Positions 45,340 to 63,001 of a stretch of DNA of 64,000 bases are shown here, one piece after another. The notes beneath the pieces are model-generated. The model had not been told where the DNA came from and ran no database searches. It was given only the letters and a program-made list of their open reading frames with translations. The position numbers were made by a program, and so were the translations under genes. Source of the DNA: Flavobacteriales bacterium (GTDB lineage Bacteria > Bacteroidota > Bacteroidia > Flavobacteriales_G > Salibacteraceae); the NCBI GenBank assembly GCA_020435995.1, contig JAGQYO010000012.1, positions 1-64,000 of the forward strand. The letters run 5' to 3'. The number at the start of each line of letters is the position of its first letter. The stretch's first letter is position 1.

Positions 45340-46701
45340 TCAAACTGTCTGGGAAAAAATAGGCGTTGTGGGTTGGTTTCGATACAGTCTTAAGTCAAAT
45401 GCCATACAAATGTTGCGTACAAAGGGCTTTCCTTTTTCTGTAACCGTCACTCCATTTTCTAATAAAACTAACAGTCCATCAGCTTCCATTTCAGCCAGTC
45501 TATTTTTAATATCGGATAGTGGCAGCCATTCATTCTGCGTGGGGTTCCAGCTAGTTTCGAAGCTACACATGAGGTTCAAAATATGTTTGCGGAGCATTAA
45601 ATCTTCGTCTGACAGTAAATGACCTTTAAACACTGGAATTTCATTTTGGTCGATGAGCCTTTCATATTCTTTGAGGGTTTTTACGTTTTGTGCGAATGCA
45701 TTCCAACTATCGCTAATGCTTGACACGCCCAAACCTATCATTACTTGGGTATGTGCGCTGGTGTATCCCATAAAATTTCGGTGAAGCTCTCGGTTTTTAT
45801 ATGATATCGTTAAATCATCATTGGGAAGTGCAAAGTGATCCATACCAATCTCGAGGTATTGATGTTCTTCGAGTAATTTTTTCCCAAGTTCGTATAGCGA
45901 TCTTTTGTAGTCGTTGTCTGGAAGGTCTTCATCAGAATACAAGCGTTGCGCCTTGCTTACCCAAGGTACATGTGCATAACTGTAATAGGCAATGCGGTCG
46001 GGTTTGAGCGCTATTGTTTTGAGAATGGTGTCTTCAATACTATTTAGCGTTTGCTTGGGAAGTCCAAAAATAAGGTCAAAGTTGATGGACGTGTATCCAA
46101 TTTCTCTCGCAATTTGGCTCACCGCTTCTACTTCTTCATAGCTTTGGTAGCGATTGATAACTCGCTGAACTTCAGGTGTGAAATCTTGAACGCCCAAGCT
46201 CAATCGTTTAAAGCCTAAATCGAATAATACCTGCATTTTATCGCGGGTGGTACTCGATGGGTGCGCCTCAAAACTAAATTCATGTTTGGCCGTTTTTTCG
46301 GCATATTTCAGAAGGCCTTCAATGAGGATTTTGAGGTTTTCTGCGCTGAAAAAGGTGGGGGTTCCACCGCCTAAATGCAGTTCTTTTATTCTGGGCTTTT
46401 GCGATAAGAGGTCGCAATATAATTTCCATTCATTGAGTACCCGGGTAATATAAGGAGCTTCTACCGAATGTTGGGTTGTAATCTTCTTATTGCAGCCGCA
46501 ATAATGACAAAGCGCCTCGCAATATGGAAGATGAATATAGAGGCTTATTCCATCGGATTGATTGGTGGCTTCGAATGTTTTTTTGAGGCTCGTCAACCAG
46601 TCATTTTTTCCAAAACCATCAGATTCCCAGTAGGGTACAGTAGGGTAGGAGGTGTACCGAGGCCCTGGTACATTATACTTACGAATAAGGCTTGTTTCCA
46701 T
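45340..46701 (-). CDS. hemN: Oxygen-independent coproporphyrinogen III oxidase
   Basis: 453 residues, the usual HemN length. Radical SAM cluster motif in YIHLPYCEALCHYCGC (CxxxCxxC plus the following Cys), then LGGGTPTFFSAENL, the GGxP block and SFEAHPSS; the C-terminal HemN domain with HKHILNLMCSFET-like helices is complete. Makes protoporphyrinogen IX without oxygen, so it supports haem supply under low oxygen. The gene is preceded by an FNR-type palindrome, and the cbb3 oxidase genes follow the same logic nearby. Confidence 0.94.
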   Translation of the reverse strand: METSLIRKYNVPGPRYTSYPTVPYWESDGFGKNDWLTSLKKTFEATNQSDGISLYIHLPYCEALCHYCGCNKKITTQHSVEAPYITRVLNEWKLYCDLLSQKPRIKELHLGGGTPTFFSAENLKILIEGLLKYAEKTAKHEFSFEAHPSSTTRDKMQVLFDLGFKRLSLGVQDFTPEVQRVINRYQSYEEVEAVSQIAREIGYTSINFDLIFGLPKQTLNSIEDTILKTIALKPDRIAYYSYAHVPWVSKAQRLYSDEDLPDNDYKRSLYELGKKLLEEHQYLEIGMDHFALPNDDLTISYKNRELHRNFMGYTSAHTQVMIGLGVSSISDSWNAFAQNVKTLKEYERLIDQNEIPVFKGHLLSDEDLMLRKHILNLMCSFETSWNPTQNEWLPLSDIKNRLAEMEADGLLVLLENGVTVTEKGKPFVRNICMAFDLRLYRNQPTTPIFSQTV

Positions 46702-46769: not shown

Positions 46770-46979
46770 AGTTATCAGTAGTGAGTTACCAGTAGTGAGT
46801 TGCCAGTAGTGAGTTGCCAGTAGTGAGTTATCAGTAGTGAGTTACCAGTAGCGAGTTACCAGTAGTGAGTTATTAGTAGCGAGTTATCAGTAGCGAGTTA
46901 CCAGTAGTGAGTTACCAGTAGTGAGTTACCAGTAGTGAGTTATCAGTAGTGAGTTATCAGGAGCGAGTTATTAGTAGTG
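46770..46979. repeat. Tandem array of fifteen 14-bp units (two heptamers each)
   Basis: Fifteen consecutive units of the form AGTTAcC-AGTAGtG, with variation mainly at positions 5-6 (A/G, C/T) and in the last heptamer (GTG/GCG). Each unit is two related heptamers starting AGT. No gap and no spacers. It fills most of the 353-bp stretch between hemN and the gene at 47055, whose remaining part has only the FNR-type box and nothing else recognised. Confidence 0.95.
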
Positions 46980-54106: not shown

Positions 54107-57100
54107 TTATTGTACAATGAGCTTGTAAGTATAAACTTCATTTCCAAGATTAAGGCTTATCATATAGCTACCTGGTGGAAGTTTTTGACTCATTTCGATT
54201 GAAATAATTGAATGACCATCTTGATTAAAAACTGAATATTCCGACAAGTATGCCTTTCCTAAAAAGTCGGTGATGGTAATATTTATATTTTCAGGATTTC
54301 CAGACGGAATTTTTATAGAAATATTTTTACCATTATTCGGATTGGGAAATAATTCTATTTCAGAATCAGAAATATTTTTTTGAGGATCATTTACAATTTT
54401 TTGGAGATCAAAATATGTAATCGACCCGTCAAGATCAGTTTGACTTAGACGGTAATAAGTAATACCATGCGAGGGGTTCTGGTCTTTTTCGCGATATTCA
54501 GTTTTTTCGTTTGTGGTGCCTTGTCCCTCGACCCTAACCACTTCCTCAAATTCTTTTAGGTCATTTGTTTTTTCCACTAGGAAAAAATCGTTGTTTACTT
54601 CACTAGATGTCACCCATTCTAAGTCAACATTTTGAGTTTCCTCATTGAAGGTTGCGGCAAAGCTTAAAAGTTCAACGGGTAATGGGTTATTTACTGTGGT
54701 AGATGCCAATGTAAATGGACTGAAGCTAGAGACGGCACCAGCAGTTTGCACCGTTCCAGCCGTGGTATTGCCAGATGTACCCCCATTACCTTGATCTTGC
54801 CAAGTACTGCCATCCCATCTAGCTACTGTAAGTTCGTTGAGATCGTCAACTCCACCAGAATTGGGATTCCAGCCAATGGTTACAGTAACATTGCCTGGGG
54901 GATTTATTCTGTCTAAATTCCAAAATTCTCGGGTACTTATGTGATCGATACTTCCGCTTAAACTTGTGCCATAAGTTGCCCCTGGGTCGGTGTAAGTATA
55001 TTGAGCTCTAAACCTTGAAGCATTCGAATTTGGAGCGGACATTGAAATGGGTCGATAACTTGTGCCATCACCCACTGGAAACTCAAAAGCATTGTTTCCA
55101 ATTTTTTCTACTGGGCCATCTACGTGTGAATTATCACTCGCGCCTGATACTGTAGCTTCATCATTTATGTATAACAGATTGGTTGACGTTGTAACTAAAT
55201 TGCCACTGGTAAACGTCATGGTAGTACTCACTGAAATAGGCATGTTTAAAGTAATATCAGCGCTTGAATTACTCAAAGTAAATCTTCTAAATACTGGTTC
55301 GGTTGAAGCTGCTAAATCGTTGATAGATTGCGCTCCTGTTCCGTCCATAATTATAGTTCCTGTGTGTGCGGCAAATGTGATTGCATCCGCAGAGTTGATG
55401 TTAATGTCGCCCGCATAGGTACTCGCTGATGCATAGGATGGGTACATCAATCCAGTAGAGGACTTGATATAACTTACATTCCCATTATAATCATCTGGAG
55501 TGCCATTTCCTTGCATAAAATATCCCGTGCCAGAATTTGTAAAAGTTACATCACCATTAAATGAATTTCCCCCAGCGGATGCATCATTGGTCGCACCAGT
55601 TTTTGTTAAAAGAGTAGCGCTTCGATATGTCGTGCCTCTGGAATAATTTTGAGGGGCTATCCCTGTGAAGTTTCCGCCAAAATCGGAATCATAAATATTC
55701 AATATGCTTGAGCCAGTGAGTGTCAATGAGCTAGCGGCTGAGCCAAGTTGAGTAAAGTTTCTGAGATATAAAGTTCCAGCCACAAACCCACCACCACCAA
55801 TACTAATATTACCTCCTGCACTTTGGGTGGCAGTACCTCCACCACCTCCGAATTGAATACCATCTGACGCAGGGTCGGTAGCTTCCAGTATTATATTTCC
55901 ACCATAGGTATTGGAACTACTTGCAGAATTGTTACAATAAAATTCACTATTGCTAGCTGACGAGGAATTTGAAATAGATAAATCGCCAGAAATTGAAACG
56001 TTTCCTTGGCTTCCCAAATATGTTCTTTTGGTGGTTCCAGCGCCACTGTTTGAAAAAGTTGCGTTACCGCCAATGGTTATATCAGAAGTAGAGGAATTTC
56101 CTACATAGAGATATCCGTTAACGCCACTTGCGGAATTAGTTGCGATGAGGCTACCTGATAGGGTAACATCCCCAGAATTTCCAAAGTATGTGTGAATATT
56201 GTCCCCAGAACCTGAATTATTCAATGTGGTATTTCCGCCTATTGAAAGACTACTGCCCCCAGAGGTACTTATATAATGATACACATTGTCAGTACCATTA
56301 TTTGTAGATATAAAATTACCGGCTATAGAATTACCAGCTGAATTATGAGCAATGTACGAGTGATCGGTTCCCGTAGTAGTCATAGTGAGATCACTACCCC
56401 AGGTATCAGGTGTGCCATTGCCCATTAAAAAATATCCAGTGCCTGAATTAAGCATAGTACAATTTCCAATAAAAGTATTTCCGCCCGGCGAAGCATCATC
56501 AATATCGCCCGATTTTTCTAAAGACGCTGTGCCAGAGTAGGTTGTACCATACGTATAAAACCGCGGTGCTGAAAAAACAACATTACCACCCCAATTGGCA
56601 TCATATTGTATCATGTAGGCTGTACCTGTGAGCGTTAGAGCTTGGGCTGTAGCCCCCGTTTGAGTAAAGTTTCTAAAACGCAATTCACCAGCAATAAATC
56701 CTCCTCCACTTACGGTAATAGTCTTTGTAGCTGCCAGGGTTCCTGAACCCCCGTTTTGACCAAAACGAACACCGTCGCAATCTGCATTTGATGATTCAAT
56801 TGTAATATTTCCTCCATAGGTATTTACAGAGCCTGTTCTGTCATTACAATACACTTCGGAATTGGACGCGGATGAACTATTGCTAATACTTAAGTTTCCT
56901 GTTATAGCCACGTCACCGTAATTTCCAAAATAACACCGTTTGGTTGTACCTGCTCCAGAATTGGTCCATGTACTGTTGCCGCCAATGGAAACTATAGAGG
57001 CTGAGTTATTTCCAATATAAATTTCTCCAGTTGAGGCGGTGCTTGAATTTGTAGCCGTTACATTTCCACTAACAGTTAAGTTTCCAATATTGGTTAGATA

Positions 57101-60100
57101 GATACTCTTAGTTGTACCTGATGCACTGTTTGTTGCGTCTAAGTTCCCATTAATAATTACAACACTGTTGGTATTGTTGGCCATTAAAATATATCCGTTA
57201 TCGCCGGTTCCGCTATTGGTTAAGGTCACGTTATTGTTAAACGTAATGTCACCTTGATCACCTACATAGATATAGCTTGTGGTGGCCGTGCTTGAGTTGG
57301 TAAATGTGCCTGTACCGCCCACTGTGATGGTGGACGCCGTTGCATTCGAAATATATGAATAGTTTGTAGCCCCGCTTCCATTGTTATTCACTACAAGGTT
57401 ACCAGCAATGGTATTTCCGGCGCTATTTTGACCCAAGTACATGTGGTAGGTTCCAGAGTTATTCATTGTTAAGTTGCCACCAAAAATATCAGGGCTTCCA
57501 TTGCCCATTCCAAAATACCTAGACCCCGAGTTATTCAAAATTACATCCCCTGCGAAGCTATTTCCTCCTGGTGAAGCGTCATCAGATGCATCAGTTTTAG
57601 ATAAAGTGGCGGTACCTCGATAAGTTGTTCCAGTGGTGTACATTCTTCCACCGGAAAAAACAACATTTCCACCCCAATCTGAATCATAATTGTATAGGTA
57701 ACCGCTCCCAGCGTTGATCAAAGTTTGTGCTGTTGGTCCAACTTGAGTGAAATTACGGAGATAAATATCACCACCAATAAATCCTCCTGCTCCTACACTT
57801 ATCGTTCTAGTAGCCGCAAGCGTGGCACTTCCACCCGCATTTCCGAAGAATACGCCATCCGTCGAAGCATTGGTGGATGCTATGGTGATGTTTCCTCCAT
57901 AGGTTGCTACGCTATTGCTATTATGGTTGCAGTAAACTTGTGAATTTGTGGCGGTACTTGTATTCGAAATATCCAAACTTCCGGTTTGTGTAATACTTCC
58001 TTGGTTTCCAAAATAGACTCGGTTAGTTGTTCCCGCTCCTGAGTTAGTAATGGTTGTGTTTCCACCAATTATCAAGGTAGAGGTGGACACATTTGAAGCG
58101 TAAATATGGCTCGACGCACCTGTGCCACTATTGTTTAGCGTAAGATTCCCAGTGATTGTAATATCACCATCATCCGAAAAATGAATAATGCTATTGGAGG
58201 CACTTGAGGTGTTGTTGATGATGGCATTGCCACCAATACTTAATGTAGAAGCCGCATAATCGCTGATATAGAAATATGAATTGGTTCCAGAAGTAGCATG
58301 GTTTACTGTTAAGTTTCCAGCGATGGTATTTCCTGCACTGTTATAGGCCAAATACATATTGTCATCACCCGTATTATTCATCGTAACGTTACCTCCAAAA
58401 ACGTCGGGAGAACCATTGCCCATTAAGAAATATCGCGATCCAGAATTATTTAAAACCACATCGCCGGCAAAGGAATTTCCACCTTGAGAGGCGTCATCAA
58501 TCGCTCCAGTTTTTGATAAAGTCGCTGTTCCGCGATAGGTGGTGCCAGTGGTGTACATTCTTCCGCCAGAAAAAACAACGTTTCCACCCCAATCTGAATC
58601 GTAATTATAGATGTAACCTGGCCCAGAATTGATTACCGTTTGGGCCGTTGCACCGATTTGAGTGAAGTTCTTGAAATAAATGTCTCCTGCCGTAATACCA
58701 CCACCTGAAGCCGTTACTGTTTTTGTTGCCGCAAGTGTTCCGCTACCACCAGCCCCTGAAGAACCGAATAGAATTCCATCTGAATCTACATGGCTACTTT
58801 CCAGAGTAATATTTCCATTATATGCATTTACCGAGCCCGATTGGTGGTTACAATACACTTCAGAATTAGTAGCAGAGCTCGTGTTTTTTATATCTAAATC
58901 ACTTCCAAAAGTGATATCGCCTAAGTTTCCTAAATAAACCCTTTTGGTTGTTCCTGCTCCTGTATTTTCAATGGTTGATGTTCCCCCAATCGAAACCGTA
59001 GAAGTGGCTTGTTGAGCAATATAGAATTGACCAGTTGTACCGCTCGCTTGATTTCGGGCAACTAAATTTCCACCAATCGTAACATTCCCATCATCTCCAA
59101 TATAAACTATTGAATTGGAAGCAGAACTAGTTGAAATTACCGATAAGTTGCCGGTAATGTTTACCGCAGCAGAGGAGCCATCAGCTAGGTATATATAAGA
59201 ATTGGTAGCAGTAGCAGAATGGTTTACAGTCATATCTCCGCCAACGGTGAGTGTTCCTAAGTAGGCAAGGTACGCATAGGCAGAGTTACTTGCCGTTGCG
59301 CTGTTATTTACAATTAAATTTCCTGTAACAGAGAGGGTAGAAGTGTCAATACTACATAAATACAAATTACCAGTGGTACCATTGCTAGTGTTGTTCATTG
59401 TGAGATTTCCGGCTACGGTGGTTCCAACTGCTCTGTAAGCTAGGTACATACTGTTAGTTCCTGAATTATTCATAGTTAAGTTGTTGCCAAAGCTATCTGG
59501 GGAGCCGTCGCCCATCAGAAAATACCCAGAACCAGAATTATTCAGAATGGCTGTACCACTAATTGTGTTTCCACCTAAGCTTCTATCATCGATTGCATTT
59601 GTTTTTGAAAGAGTAAGAGTTCCCTGGTAGGTAGTATTATTGGTTAAGATTCTCCCTGAGCTAAAGTTAACGTTTCCACCCCAGATGGAATTGCTATTGT
59701 ATATATATCCTGTCCCTGTATTGGTTAGGGTTTGAGCCGTAGCTCCTATTTGAGTAAAATTGAACAAGTAAATATCTCCTTCAACATAGCCACCACCGCC
59801 TACTGAGATGGTTTTCGTTGCGGCTAGGGTAGCACTTCCTCCGCTTGCTCCGAATCTGTGCCCATCTGAGTCTGCGGTGGTACTTTCTAAAACAATGTTG
59901 CCGTTATAAACGCCAACGCTTCCAGTATTGTCGTTACAAAAGATGTGATTTGATGTTGCGGTTGAAGAATTGGTTAACGTCATCGTACCTCCAATTGTAA
60001 TGTCACCAGATGATCCAATAAACATCCTGCCGTTGGTTCCACCTCCCGACTGGGTATAAGTGAGGTTTCCACCTATTATAACAGTAGCATCGGCTGCAGT

Positions 60101-63001
60101 CGCTATGTAACAATCACTGTTGGCCACCGAAGATGTTCTATTCCAGGTAACATTACCATTAACGGTAACATCACCAGTATTTCCAAGTCGCGCACCACAA
60201 GTTGAGGCCGTTCCTGAAACGGTAATATCAACATTGCCATCCACTTGAAGGGTCGAACTGAATAAATCAGAAAGATAGATCCATGCCGAAGTCCCACTAC
60301 CTGAATTTGTGGCGGTAAGATTACCAGACACATAATTTCCACTAGAGTTATATCCCAAGTATATTCCACGTGTTCCACTATTCAATAACGTAAGATTTCC
60401 GTTGACAGAATCTGGAGAACCATTTCCCATCATTAAATACCCGTCATTGGTACAGTTTAAAGTTGTGTTTCCACCAAACACATTACCGCCAACACATTGA
60501 TCATCTGAGGGACCATTTTTAGTGATTATTGCTGTTCCGCCATATCGCGTACCTCTTGTAATTATTCTACCAGAAGAAAACGAAACATTGCCACCCCAAT
60601 TACAATCATAATTATATATGTATCCTTCTCCAGTGTTTGCCAAGGTTTGTGGAGTTGCCCCTGTTTGTGTAAAATTTCGGAAATACAAATCCCCAGAAAT
60701 AAAACCACCTGCTCCGACAGTAATGGTTCTTGTTGCAGCAAGGGTTCCAACGCCTGCTCCACTTCCAAAATAAATTCCATCTGCGTCCGCAACAGTATTT
60801 GCTACCACAATATTTCCATTGTAGGTCCCAACACTTCCGGATGCATTGTTGCAATAAATCTGGCTATTTGAAGCGGATGACGAATTTACTAAGGTCATGG
60901 TACCTCCAACCGAAACACTACCTGCATTTCCAATGAACATCCTGCCAGAAGTCCCCCCACCCGTTTGGGTGTACGAGAGGTCACCTGCAATATTCACCGT
61001 AGAAGCCGCTGAATTTGCGATATAGCAATCACTGTTAACACTCGATGTTGATCTTACCCAAGTAACATTACCAGCGACCTCTACACTACCTGTGTTGCCC
61101 AATCTGGCTACGCACGTCGTTGAAGTTCCGTTTACCGTGATGTCGACATTCCCATCAACTTGCAGAGTTGAAGCAGCGGCATCTGACAAATAAATCCAAG
61201 TTGAAGCACCTGTTCCTGAATTGGTAGCGCTAAGGTTTCCGCCAACATAATTACCCGCTGAATTATACCCAAGGTAAATCCCATTTTGGCCTGTATTAAC
61301 GAGTGTGAGGTCTACTTTGAAAGTGTCCGGTGTGCCATTTCCCATCAAGAGGTAGTCAGCTCCTGAACAAGTTAATGTTGCAATTCCTTCAAATACGTTT
61401 CCACCAACACATTGGTCATTAGTTGCTCCATTCTTGGTAAGCGAAGCAGTGCCTCTATATCTCGTTCCTCTGGTTATCATTCGTGGCGCAACGAAAGTGA
61501 CATTACCACCCCAGTCGGAATCATAGTTGTACATGTAGCCGCTGCCCGTAAGTGTTATACTTTGTGCTGTAGATCCTGTTTGTGTAAAATTTCGTAATTG
61601 TAATTCACCTGAGCTGAATCCAGCTCCCCCAATGGTCAATGTTTTTGTTGCGACTAGGGTTCCTGACCCACCATTGCTCCCAAATAGAATTCCATCAGCG
61701 GCAGCATTGCTGTTTGTGATGATAATGTTGTCATTATAAGTATTTATACTTCCTGTTGCGTAATGGCAAAAGACTTCTGAATTGGTGGCCGTACTAGAAT
61801 TGTCGATGGTTAAAACGCCGCTAAAAGTAACACTTCCAGAATTCCCTAACCAACAACGCCCCGTTGTACCAGACCCATTATTTGTAATACTAGTGGCTCC
61901 AGCAATTGTTACTGATGAATTGGCACCGTTCGCAATAAGAACTTGATGGCTTGTAGCAGTACTAGAGTTTACCGCATCAACTCGTCCTGAACAATTAACA
62001 GTTCCGTTATTTCCTAAATAAACGTTGGAATTGGTTGCTCCTAAACTGCTATTAGTAAGAGTTACATTTCCTACCAGGGTAGCCGATCCTGTTGTTTGTG
62101 TTCCAAAATAAACGGTACCATTAGTACCAAGTACATTATTGGTTACCGTGGTTAGGCCACCAATATGTAATGCACCAGCGTCTCCGAGATATAGCGTGTT
62201 GTTGTCAGCCGATCCAACGTTGTTTGCCAATAGATTTCCATCAACAGTGGTGCTCGATCCAGTGATGTCAGATACGTAAACGTAGGTACTGCCACTCGAA
62301 CCATTATTTGAAATTGTCAAATTTCCACTGATATATGTTCCAGCACTGTTGTAGGCCAAGTACATGTTATGCGACCCTGTATTAGTCATGATTAAATTGC
62401 CAATAATCGTATCTGGTGTGCCATTTCCTGTCATGAAATAACCGCTGCCAGCATTGGTCATTGTTAAACCGCCATTAAATACATTTCCTCCGGTTCCAGC
62501 ATCGTGCCCAGCATCATTTTTTTCCATTACTGCCGTTCCATTAAACCTAGATCCATTTAAATATAACCTAGCCGAAACACAGGTAACATTTGGGTTGAAC
62601 ACACTACCCCTAAAGTAAGTAATACCCGTTGAGGTAATACTTATGGACCCACCTGAAGTGTTATTAAAAGTGCCGTCTTCAAAATCATTTGTAGTTGCTC
62701 CATTAATGGTTAGGTTGTTTCCGTTGAGGTCAATTATTGCGGTATAGCCTACCGAGATATCGATAGATTCTATAGTCGGTGCAACGTCCAAAGTAAGGTT
62801 TACATTGCCACTAGAGTTAAACAAAGCTCGGTCGCCCGCCCCGGGAATCGAGGCACCACCCATACCTCCCGAGGTAGTGGACCAATTTCCAGTTTCATTC
62901 CAATTGTTGTTAGTGGCTCCTACCCAATAACGGTCAGCCCCTAGTAGTGTTCCAGAAATCAGAACAAACAATACCTGACAAAGTAGTTTTATGTAATTCA
63001 A
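54107..63001 (-). CDS. Giant T9SS-exported repeat protein (2,964 residues)
   Basis: Signal peptide (to about SGTLLGA), then RYWVGATNNNWNETGNWS, the common opening of large secreted Bacteroidota proteins. Residues from about 150 to 2540 hold eight modules, each with a GGN-F-G block and a GNG[ST]PD block, plus many short strands of the type GNLT-NSG that suggest a beta-solenoid. Spacing between GNGxPD codons is 1086, 915, 915, 1092, 915, 1083 and 912 bases, all in frame. Most modules have one Cys in a [EQ]VYCN motif. A beta-sandwich region follows, and the end is a T9SS type A domain (ELFPNPNNGKN...YKLIVQ). Likely surface adhesin or filament; function is inference. Monocistronic. Confidence 0.9.
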   Translation of the reverse strand: MNYIKLLCQVLFVLISGTLLGADRYWVGATNNNWNETGNWSTTSGGMGGASIPGAGDRALFNSSGNVNLTLDVAPTIESIDISVGYTAIIDLNGNNLTINGATTNDFEDGTFNNTSGGSISITSTGITYFRGSVFNPNVTCVSARLYLNGSRFNGTAVMEKNDAGHDAGTGGNVFNGGLTMTNAGSGYFMTGNGTPDTIIGNLIMTNTGSHNMYLAYNSAGTYISGNLTISNNGSSGSTYVYVSDITGSSTTVDGNLLANNVGSADNNTLYLGDAGALHIGGLTTVTNNVLGTNGTVYFGTQTTGSATLVGNVTLTNSSLGATNSNVYLGNNGTVNCSGRVDAVNSSTATSHQVLIANGANSSVTIAGATSITNNGSGTTGRCWLGNSGSVTFSGVLTIDNSSTATNSEVFCHYATGSINTYNDNIIITNSNAAADGILFGSNGGSGTLVATKTLTIGGAGFSSGELQLRNFTQTGSTAQSITLTGSGYMYNYDSDWGGNVTFVAPRMITRGTRYRGTASLTKNGATNDQCVGGNVFEGIATLTCSGADYLLMGNGTPDTFKVDLTLVNTGQNGIYLGYNSAGNYVGGNLSATNSGTGASTWIYLSDAAASTLQVDGNVDITVNGTSTTCVARLGNTGSVEVAGNVTWVRSTSSVNSDCYIANSAASTVNIAGDLSYTQTGGGTSGRMFIGNAGSVSVGGTMTLVNSSSASNSQIYCNNASGSVGTYNGNIVVANTVADADGIYFGSGAGVGTLAATRTITVGAGGFISGDLYFRNFTQTGATPQTLANTGEGYIYNYDCNWGGNVSFSSGRIITRGTRYGGTAIITKNGPSDDQCVGGNVFGGNTTLNCTNDGYLMMGNGSPDSVNGNLTLLNSGTRGIYLGYNSSGNYVSGNLTATNSGSGTSAWIYLSDLFSSTLQVDGNVDITVSGTASTCGARLGNTGDVTVNGNVTWNRTSSVANSDCYIATAADATVIIGGNLTYTQSGGGTNGRMFIGSSGDITIGGTMTLTNSSTATSNHIFCNDNTGSVGVYNGNIVLESTTADSDGHRFGASGGSATLAATKTISVGGGGYVEGDIYLFNFTQIGATAQTLTNTGTGYIYNSNSIWGGNVNFSSGRILTNNTTYQGTLTLSKTNAIDDRSLGGNTISGTAILNNSGSGYFLMGDGSPDSFGNNLTMNNSGTNSMYLAYRAVGTTVAGNLTMNNTSNGTTGNLYLCSIDTSTLSVTGNLIVNNSATASNSAYAYLAYLGTLTVGGDMTVNHSATATNSYIYLADGSSAAVNITGNLSVISTSSASNSIVYIGDDGNVTIGGNLVARNQASGTTGQFYIAQQATSTVSIGGTSTIENTGAGTTKRVYLGNLGDITFGSDLDIKNTSSATNSEVYCNHQSGSVNAYNGNITLESSHVDSDGILFGSSGAGGSGTLAATKTVTASGGGITAGDIYFKNFTQIGATAQTVINSGPGYIYNYDSDWGGNVVFSGGRMYTTGTTYRGTATLSKTGAIDDASQGGNSFAGDVVLNNSGSRYFLMGNGSPDVFGGNVTMNNTGDDNMYLAYNSAGNTIAGNLTVNHATSGTNSYFYISDYAASTLSIGGNAIINNTSSASNSIIHFSDDGDITITGNLTLNNSGTGASSHIYASNVSTSTLIIGGNTTITNSGAGTTNRVYFGNQGSITQTGSLDISNTSTATNSQVYCNHNSNSVATYGGNITIASTNASTDGVFFGNAGGSATLAATRTISVGAGGFIGGDIYLRNFTQVGPTAQTLINAGSGYLYNYDSDWGGNVVFSGGRMYTTGTTYRGTATLSKTDASDDASPGGNSFAGDVILNNSGSRYFGMGNGSPDIFGGNLTMNNSGTYHMYLGQNSAGNTIAGNLVVNNNGSGATNYSYISNATASTITVGGTGTFTNSSTATTSYIYVGDQGDITFNNNVTLTNSGTGDNGYILMANNTNSVVIINGNLDATNSASGTTKSIYLTNIGNLTVSGNVTATNSSTASTGEIYIGNNSASIVSIGGNSTWTNSGAGTTKRCYFGNYGDVAITGNLSISNSSSASNSEVYCNDRTGSVNTYGGNITIESSNADCDGVRFGQNGGSGTLAATKTITVSGGGFIAGELRFRNFTQTGATAQALTLTGTAYMIQYDANWGGNVVFSAPRFYTYGTTYSGTASLEKSGDIDDASPGGNTFIGNCTMLNSGTGYFLMGNGTPDTWGSDLTMTTTGTDHSYIAHNSAGNSIAGNFISTNNGTDNVYHYISTSGGSSLSIGGNTTLNNSGSGDNIHTYFGNSGDVTLSGSLIATNSASGVNGYLYVGNSSTSDITIGGNATFSNSGAGTTKRTYLGSQGNVSISGDLSISNSSSASNSEFYCNNSASSSNTYGGNIILEATDPASDGIQFGGGGGTATQSAGGNISIGGGGFVAGTLYLRNFTQLGSAASSLTLTGSSILNIYDSDFGGNFTGIAPQNYSRGTTYRSATLLTKTGATNDASAGGNSFNGDVTFTNSGTGYFMQGNGTPDDYNGNVSYIKSSTGLMYPSYASASTYAGDININSADAITFAAHTGTIIMDGTGAQSINDLAASTEPVFRRFTLSNSSADITLNMPISVSTTMTFTSGNLVTTSTNLLYINDEATVSGASDNSHVDGPVEKIGNNAFEFPVGDGTSYRPISMSAPNSNASRFRAQYTYTDPGATYGTSLSGSIDHISTREFWNLDRINPPGNVTVTIGWNPNSGGVDDLNELTVARWDGSTWQDQGNGGTSGNTTAGTVQTAGAVSSFSPFTLASTTVNNPLPVELLSFAATFNEETQNVDLEWVTSSEVNNDFFLVEKTNDLKEFEEVVRVEGQGTTNEKTEYREKDQNPSHGITYYRLSQTDLDGSITYFDLQKIVNDPQKNISDSEIELFPNPNNGKNISIKIPSGNPENINITITDFLGKAYLSEYSVFNQDGHSIISIEMSQKLPPGSYMISLNLGNEVYTYKLIVQ

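Follow-up and report, generated by a model that had tools for sequence, protein, structure and literature searches.

A 2964-residue protein encoded in the window (the whole 64,000-nucleotide stretch of DNA analyzed here) is probably a surface-anchored rod that is exported by the type IX secretion system (T9SS), folds as a beta-solenoid, serves an adhesive or matrix-forming role, and evolves slowly in length by whole coils. From the signal peptide to approximately the last 430 residues, the chain is predicted to form a single parallel beta-helix of about 98 coils with an N-terminal cap, where each module would comprise a seven-coil waist tapering to 18 residues and a wide zone of either five or seven coils. 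Between species, its length would change slowly and in steps, usually of a coil pair (approximately 56 residues, about 1 nm) or of a whole module, as coils and modules are gained, lost, and probably also shuffled.

Repeat organization and predicted fold

The gene occupies the minus-strand frame 63001..54107, which is open throughout and begins with a TTG codon. An ATT lies just upstream of the TTG at 63001, and several orthologues have ATG there; either the TTG is a genuine weak start codon, or the draft has a wrong base at this point. Together, N, S, T, and G make up 53% of the rod and Lys/Arg 2.7%, and its pI is ~4.4. The source bacterium belongs to a group that is mostly marine. The following features were identified in the gene, all on the minus strand:

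54107..63001, minus: gene of the giant T9SS cargo protein (2964 aa; ~301 kDa and pI ~4.4 when mature)
62936..63001, minus: putative signal peptide, residues 1-22 (from sequence; TTG start)
62330..62935, minus: predicted N-terminal cap (RYWVG..NWN..NWS) running straight into the beta-solenoid, residues 23-224 (AF2 pLDDT 94.4, pTM 0.91)
61736..62329, minus: wide-coil zone 0, 7 coils, long module of 362 aa (constant-section profile and coil pattern)
60821..61243, minus: wide-coil zone 1, 5 coils, short module of 305 aa (constant-section profile and coil pattern)
59906..60328, minus: wide-coil zone 2, 5 coils, short module of 305 aa (constant-section profile and coil pattern)
58820..59413, minus: wide-coil zone 3, 7 coils, long module of 364 aa (AF2 register)
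58322..58819, minus: one of the constant tapering sections, with seven coils of 34, 22, 21, 18, 22, 24, and 25 residues (AF2 register)
57899..58321, minus: wide-coil zone 4, 5 coils, short module of 305 aa (AF2 register)
56816..57406, minus: wide-coil zone 5, 7 coils, long module of 361 aa (constant-section profile and coil pattern)
55904..56323, minus: wide-coil zone 6, 5 coils, short module of 304 aa (constant-section profile and coil pattern)
54353..55411, minus: C-terminal region, residues ~2531-2883 (similar to five other places in the same genome)
54110..54352, minus: T9SS type A sorting domain (PF18962 / TIGR04183), residues 2884-2964 (profile matches)

The hexapeptide GNG[ST]PD was found in seven exact copies, along with one GDGSPD as the fourth block. 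The eight blocks and their spacings given in a preliminary description were reproduced exactly, at 1086, 915, 915, 1092, 915, 1083, and 912 nt, or 362, 305, 305, 364, 305, 361, and 304 aa. The same description spoke of two exact sizes, where the two classes hold but the sizes within each class vary by 1-3 aa. All spacings are multiples of three because the blocks lie in a single reading frame, and this adds no extra weight. Seven constant tapering sections were identified, one after each of the seven zones, and each carries one of blocks 2-8.

A sliding comparison of the protein with itself, one of the checks that had been proposed, placed the top match at an offset of 305 residues, and the strongest short period was 56, followed by 29, 112, 83, and 27. 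As 56 equals 27+29, the difference between long and short modules corresponds to one pair of 27- and 29-residue coils. Tandem Repeats Finder reported nothing in the giant gene, as would be expected from the divergence of the copies and the 500-base period limit of the program.

The fold was predicted with AlphaFold2 (AF2) for residues 1146-1875, which include one long and one short module, from an alignment of 52 two-module segments of the window protein and its homologues. The model (mean pLDDT 95.8, pTM 0.89) contained no low-confidence stretch and formed one unbroken parallel beta-helix through both modules, with coils of 18-34 residues. When cut by the predicted strands, the long module included wide coils of 29, 28, 29, 27, 29, 27, and 29 residues followed by coils of 34, 22, 21, 18, 22, 24, and 25, while the short module included wide coils of 29, 27, 29, 27, and 29 followed by 32, 22, 21, 18, 22, 24, and 25. 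Each module combined a constant set of seven tapering coils (~164 residues) with a wide zone alternating between 29 and 27 residues. The long module is predicted to contain 14 coils and the short module 12, both within the same continuous solenoid that narrows to a waist in the constant part. The seven versus five wide coils in the AF2 register, together with the period of 56, bear out an earlier guess that long modules carry an extra pair of short repeats. The model also answers the suggested comparison of module structures, as long and short modules share one predicted fold and merge into a continuous filament.

An AF2 model of the first 324 residues of the mature chain (pLDDT 94.4) displayed a small cap followed by the solenoid from the beginning, and no separate tip domain was observed in this N-terminal region. 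Approximately eight N-terminal, 41 wide, and 49 waist coils add up to the total of ~98, and the predicted rod would be ~47 nm long at 0.48 nm per coil. The regular short parallel strands and the continuous core of the models would place the protein among the parallel beta-helices. Sequence searches of the PDB, with the single protein and with a profile, returned nothing real, and Foldseek searches against the PDB and viral models yielded just generic beta-helix matches or poor superpositions. The best PDB match was non-significant (E 0.16), and the weak matches were parallel beta-helix proteins that included Hap, EspP, Ag43, the FHA secretion domain, and EtpA.

Export signals and genome context

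The C-terminal sorting domain scored 35.6 bits with TIGR04183 (cut-off 23) and 27.5 with PF18962 (cut-off 27). Across NCBIfam matches up to E=1, only the type A sorting domain was found, with no match to type B. The putative signal peptide is a hydrophobic leader judged by eye, and similar leaders occur in orthologues immediately before the RYW motif. The genome encodes T9SS components, including SprA_N (97.5 bits) and ten PorP-family genes. By its sorting domain, its leader, and these T9SS genes, the giant protein is a predicted T9SS type A cargo, and the region of residues ~2531-2883 reads as a generic pre-CTD part of such cargo, given its similarity to other places in the genome. A Sec signal peptide and the type A domain would direct its export through the T9SS. 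Type A cargo is anchored to the outer surface by its C-terminal end, and the same end of the window protein would be held there.

The ten PorP/SprF-family genes are scattered across the 3.76 Mb genome (G000), on contigs C54, C174, C185, C130, C135, C11, C120, C133, C128, and C141, which suggests many T9SS cargo-partner pairs. The neighbors of the giant gene are unrelated housekeeping genes, and no SprF-like partner gene was found among the eight neighbors scanned. A birA_ligase match in NCBIfam fell far under its cut-off and was attributed to composition. Elsewhere in the window, 15 tandem copies of a 14-base unit (AGTTACCAGTAGTG) were found at 46770-46979 with 90% matches. The array, a short way upstream of a minus-strand radical SAM gene (45340-46701), could be a length-variable regulatory stretch.

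Homologues and changes in rod length

Among 395 genomes of the class, 34 contained a match to a module core. Eight genomes of the same family carry homologues, as do others in the class and an Aureispira MAG. The modules of the window protein matched no known family in Pfam or NCBIfam, and the most frequent Pfam hit among the 52 two-module segments was CUB_A2MG, in five rows with a best E of 0.00065, and the most frequent NCBIfam hit covered two rows.

The variable zone was measured between successive constant sections, located through a constant-section profile, in 23 proteins including the window's own. Zone lengths clustered at ~3, 31, 86-90, 141-146, 170-177, and 198-204 residues, which correspond to 0, 1, 3, 5, 6, and 7 coils. 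The best period was 28.3 with a resultant length of 0.94 (n=127), values drawn from related sequences that are not independent and for which no p-value is claimed. Three values did not fit this series of steps: 24, 24, and -22, from L055 and L054, in which a constant section was incomplete or was partly missed by the profile. As the wide zones nearly always start and end with a 29-residue coil, the length steps occur mostly in pairs. The 6-coil zones were limited to two sequence groups (L039/L042 and G001/G014/G020), and the Aureispira homologue has 3-coil zones (247 residues). In several other families, the ~164-residue module of zero wide coils is the only or main form: L055 (G054), L054 (G051), and L057 (G089) consist only or mainly of bare 7-coil sections. 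Judging from these relatives, the wide zone seems to have been either added or lost.

The mostly odd coil numbers and the paired steps could also indicate a molecular ruler, in which the coil number is itself selected and the waists face a fixed direction or lie in register with neighboring rods. This appears unlikely; if true, it would imply an ordered surface lattice or a defined cell-cell spacing.

Comparisons between species agree with a slow, stepwise evolution of the rod's length. In a genome of another genus (G017), the giant gene was found at the same place, in the order UPF0020 gene - giant gene - ccoNO - ccoP - ccoG. The zones of this syntenic orthologue contain 0, 5, 5, 5, 7, 7, 7, and 3 coils, compared with 7, 5, 5, 7, 5, 7, and 5 in the window protein. 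Its zone 2 matches zone 4 of the window protein at 75%, yet the adjoining constant sections pair differently, and its 7-coil zone 5 is nearest to the type of the window's 5-coil zone 4. These matches suggest shuffling together with the gain or loss of a coil pair. In a tree of module cores, the first cores grouped across genera, as did the last, while central modules clustered by genome in several lineages (G011 m3-m7, G013 m2-m7, and Aureispira m2-m5). With 17 of the 84 inner branches strongly supported, the fine detail of this tree is uncertain. Rod length varies in steps of coils and modules over evolutionary time.

The preliminary description had proposed that length changes in steps through recombination between near-identical modules, giving a tunable filament. 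The steps were supported, as module and coil numbers differ between species and even in the syntenic orthologue, but the quick recombinational route was not. Within the gene, the module cores have only 51-66% DNA identity, their synonymous sites (dS) are saturated, and exact direct repeats reach no more than 20 nt anywhere in the gene; hence, quick tuning within a strain is not expected. The longest exact repeats in seven homologous genes are likewise only 16-25 nt. Periscope Proteins, a known class of stalks that vary in length, are marked by a high DNA identity among tandem repeats and by copy-number changes within species (PMC8201768, PMC9704523), and the modules of the window gene lack such identity. 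The differences in module and coil numbers between species, and the central modules clustered by genome as a trace of repeated past expansion, would fit a Periscope-like protein whose rod length changes quickly in the population, but the divergence of the modules makes this reading distinctly unlikely.

It had also been suggested that cysteines in the modules cross-link chains, which the alignment does not support. At the commonest Cys site, 21 of 52 rows have Cys, and most of the rest have Leu, Phe, Val, or Ile; at the second, 17 of 52 have Cys, and Ser, Gly, or Ala predominate among the others. The two sites are anti-associated, and the cysteines show no conservation. A weak excess of Cys pairs at a distance of 12-31 residues was seen in the window protein (p ~0.03) but not in most homologues.

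Probable role and comparison with known systems

The most likely role of the protein is that of a stiff, low-charge adhesive or matrix fiber, which would bind, like filamentous haemagglutinin or Ag43, along its sides or through its N-terminal end. The likeness to these adhesins is one of predicted fold class (best PDB Foldseek E 0.16). No catalytic or binding family common to the homologues was identified in Pfam or NCBIfam among the 52 two-module segments.

The stacked outward Thr and Asn of the wide coils could alternatively form a regular flat face, as in an ice-binding or other ordered-lattice rod. Strand positions 4 and 6 of the wide coils are mainly T and T/N, with charge at position 6 in less than 4%, TxT or TxN occurs in 41% of the 29-residue coils and 29% of the 27-residue coils, and beta-helical ice-binding proteins are among the very weak fold matches. 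However, these motifs are far from uniform, the seven-coil waist breaks the face in every module, the fold matches are non-significant, and the facing of residues follows from strand alternation rather than coordinates. Such a rod is considered improbable.

An even less probable reading is a degradative, polysaccharide-lyase-like beta-helix enzyme on a repeated scaffold. Many such enzymes are exported by the T9SS, and PL6 alginate lyases appeared among the weak fold matches. Nevertheless, the modules of the homologues share no catalytic family in Pfam or NCBIfam, and Gly predominates in the invariant columns of their alignment, alongside a few F, K, N, D, and Q, a pattern that better fits a structural role. 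Finally, duplication or collapse of modules during assembly is highly improbable despite a draft of 207 contigs, as a longest exact repeat of 20 nt would not confuse an ordinary assembler, the same architecture is present in two relatives assembled as single contigs (G001 and G011), and the frame is uninterrupted.

Giant T9SS surface proteins are mostly labeled just by their sorting domain, and one family now has a precise anatomy: a predicted continuous solenoid with its length counted in coils, a fixed waist, and a stretchable zone. Its members would form a naturally occurring set of rods whose lengths differ by integral numbers of coils, useful for studying the tolerance of a solenoid to insertions and the effect of rod length on attachment. 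The family also offers a caution, as a protein can have evenly spaced repeats without its gene being a recombining, fast-varying one.

Among known systems, the Periscope Proteins SasG, Rib, and Sgo_0707 (PMC8201768) similarly carry a repeat stalk that varies in unit steps. The repeats of the window protein, in contrast, are highly diverged in DNA, its predicted solenoid is continuous whereas the Periscope stalk is a string of domains, and length changes in its family were seen between species only. The gliding adhesin SprB of Flavobacterium johnsoniae (6497 aa; PMC9870892) is likewise a giant, repetitive, filament-forming T9SS cargo, but the window protein differs in its type A CTD and in having no SprF-like partner gene among the eight neighbors scanned. 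The grappling hook protein GhpA of Aureispira, another giant T9SS substrate, is described as having 5,898 residues and a homologue with 49 DUF11 domains (Lien et al., 2024, cited in PMC13319060). An uncultured Aureispira likewise carries a homologue of the window protein (L043). With 2964 aa and no DUF11 match, the window protein is set apart from GhpA as far as that description goes.

Filamentous haemagglutinin, Ag43, Hap, and EtpA gave the best, though non-significant, fold matches, and they share with the predicted structure of the window protein a long, surface-exposed parallel beta-helix rod rich in N, S, T, and G. These adhesins use type V export and have no sequence similarity to the window protein, which is a T9SS cargo and differs in its periodic waists and quantized wide zones. 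Separated from Periscope Proteins by DNA identity, from SprB by the sorting domain, and from the described GhpA by length and domains, the window protein is predicted to be most like the beta-helix surface rods.
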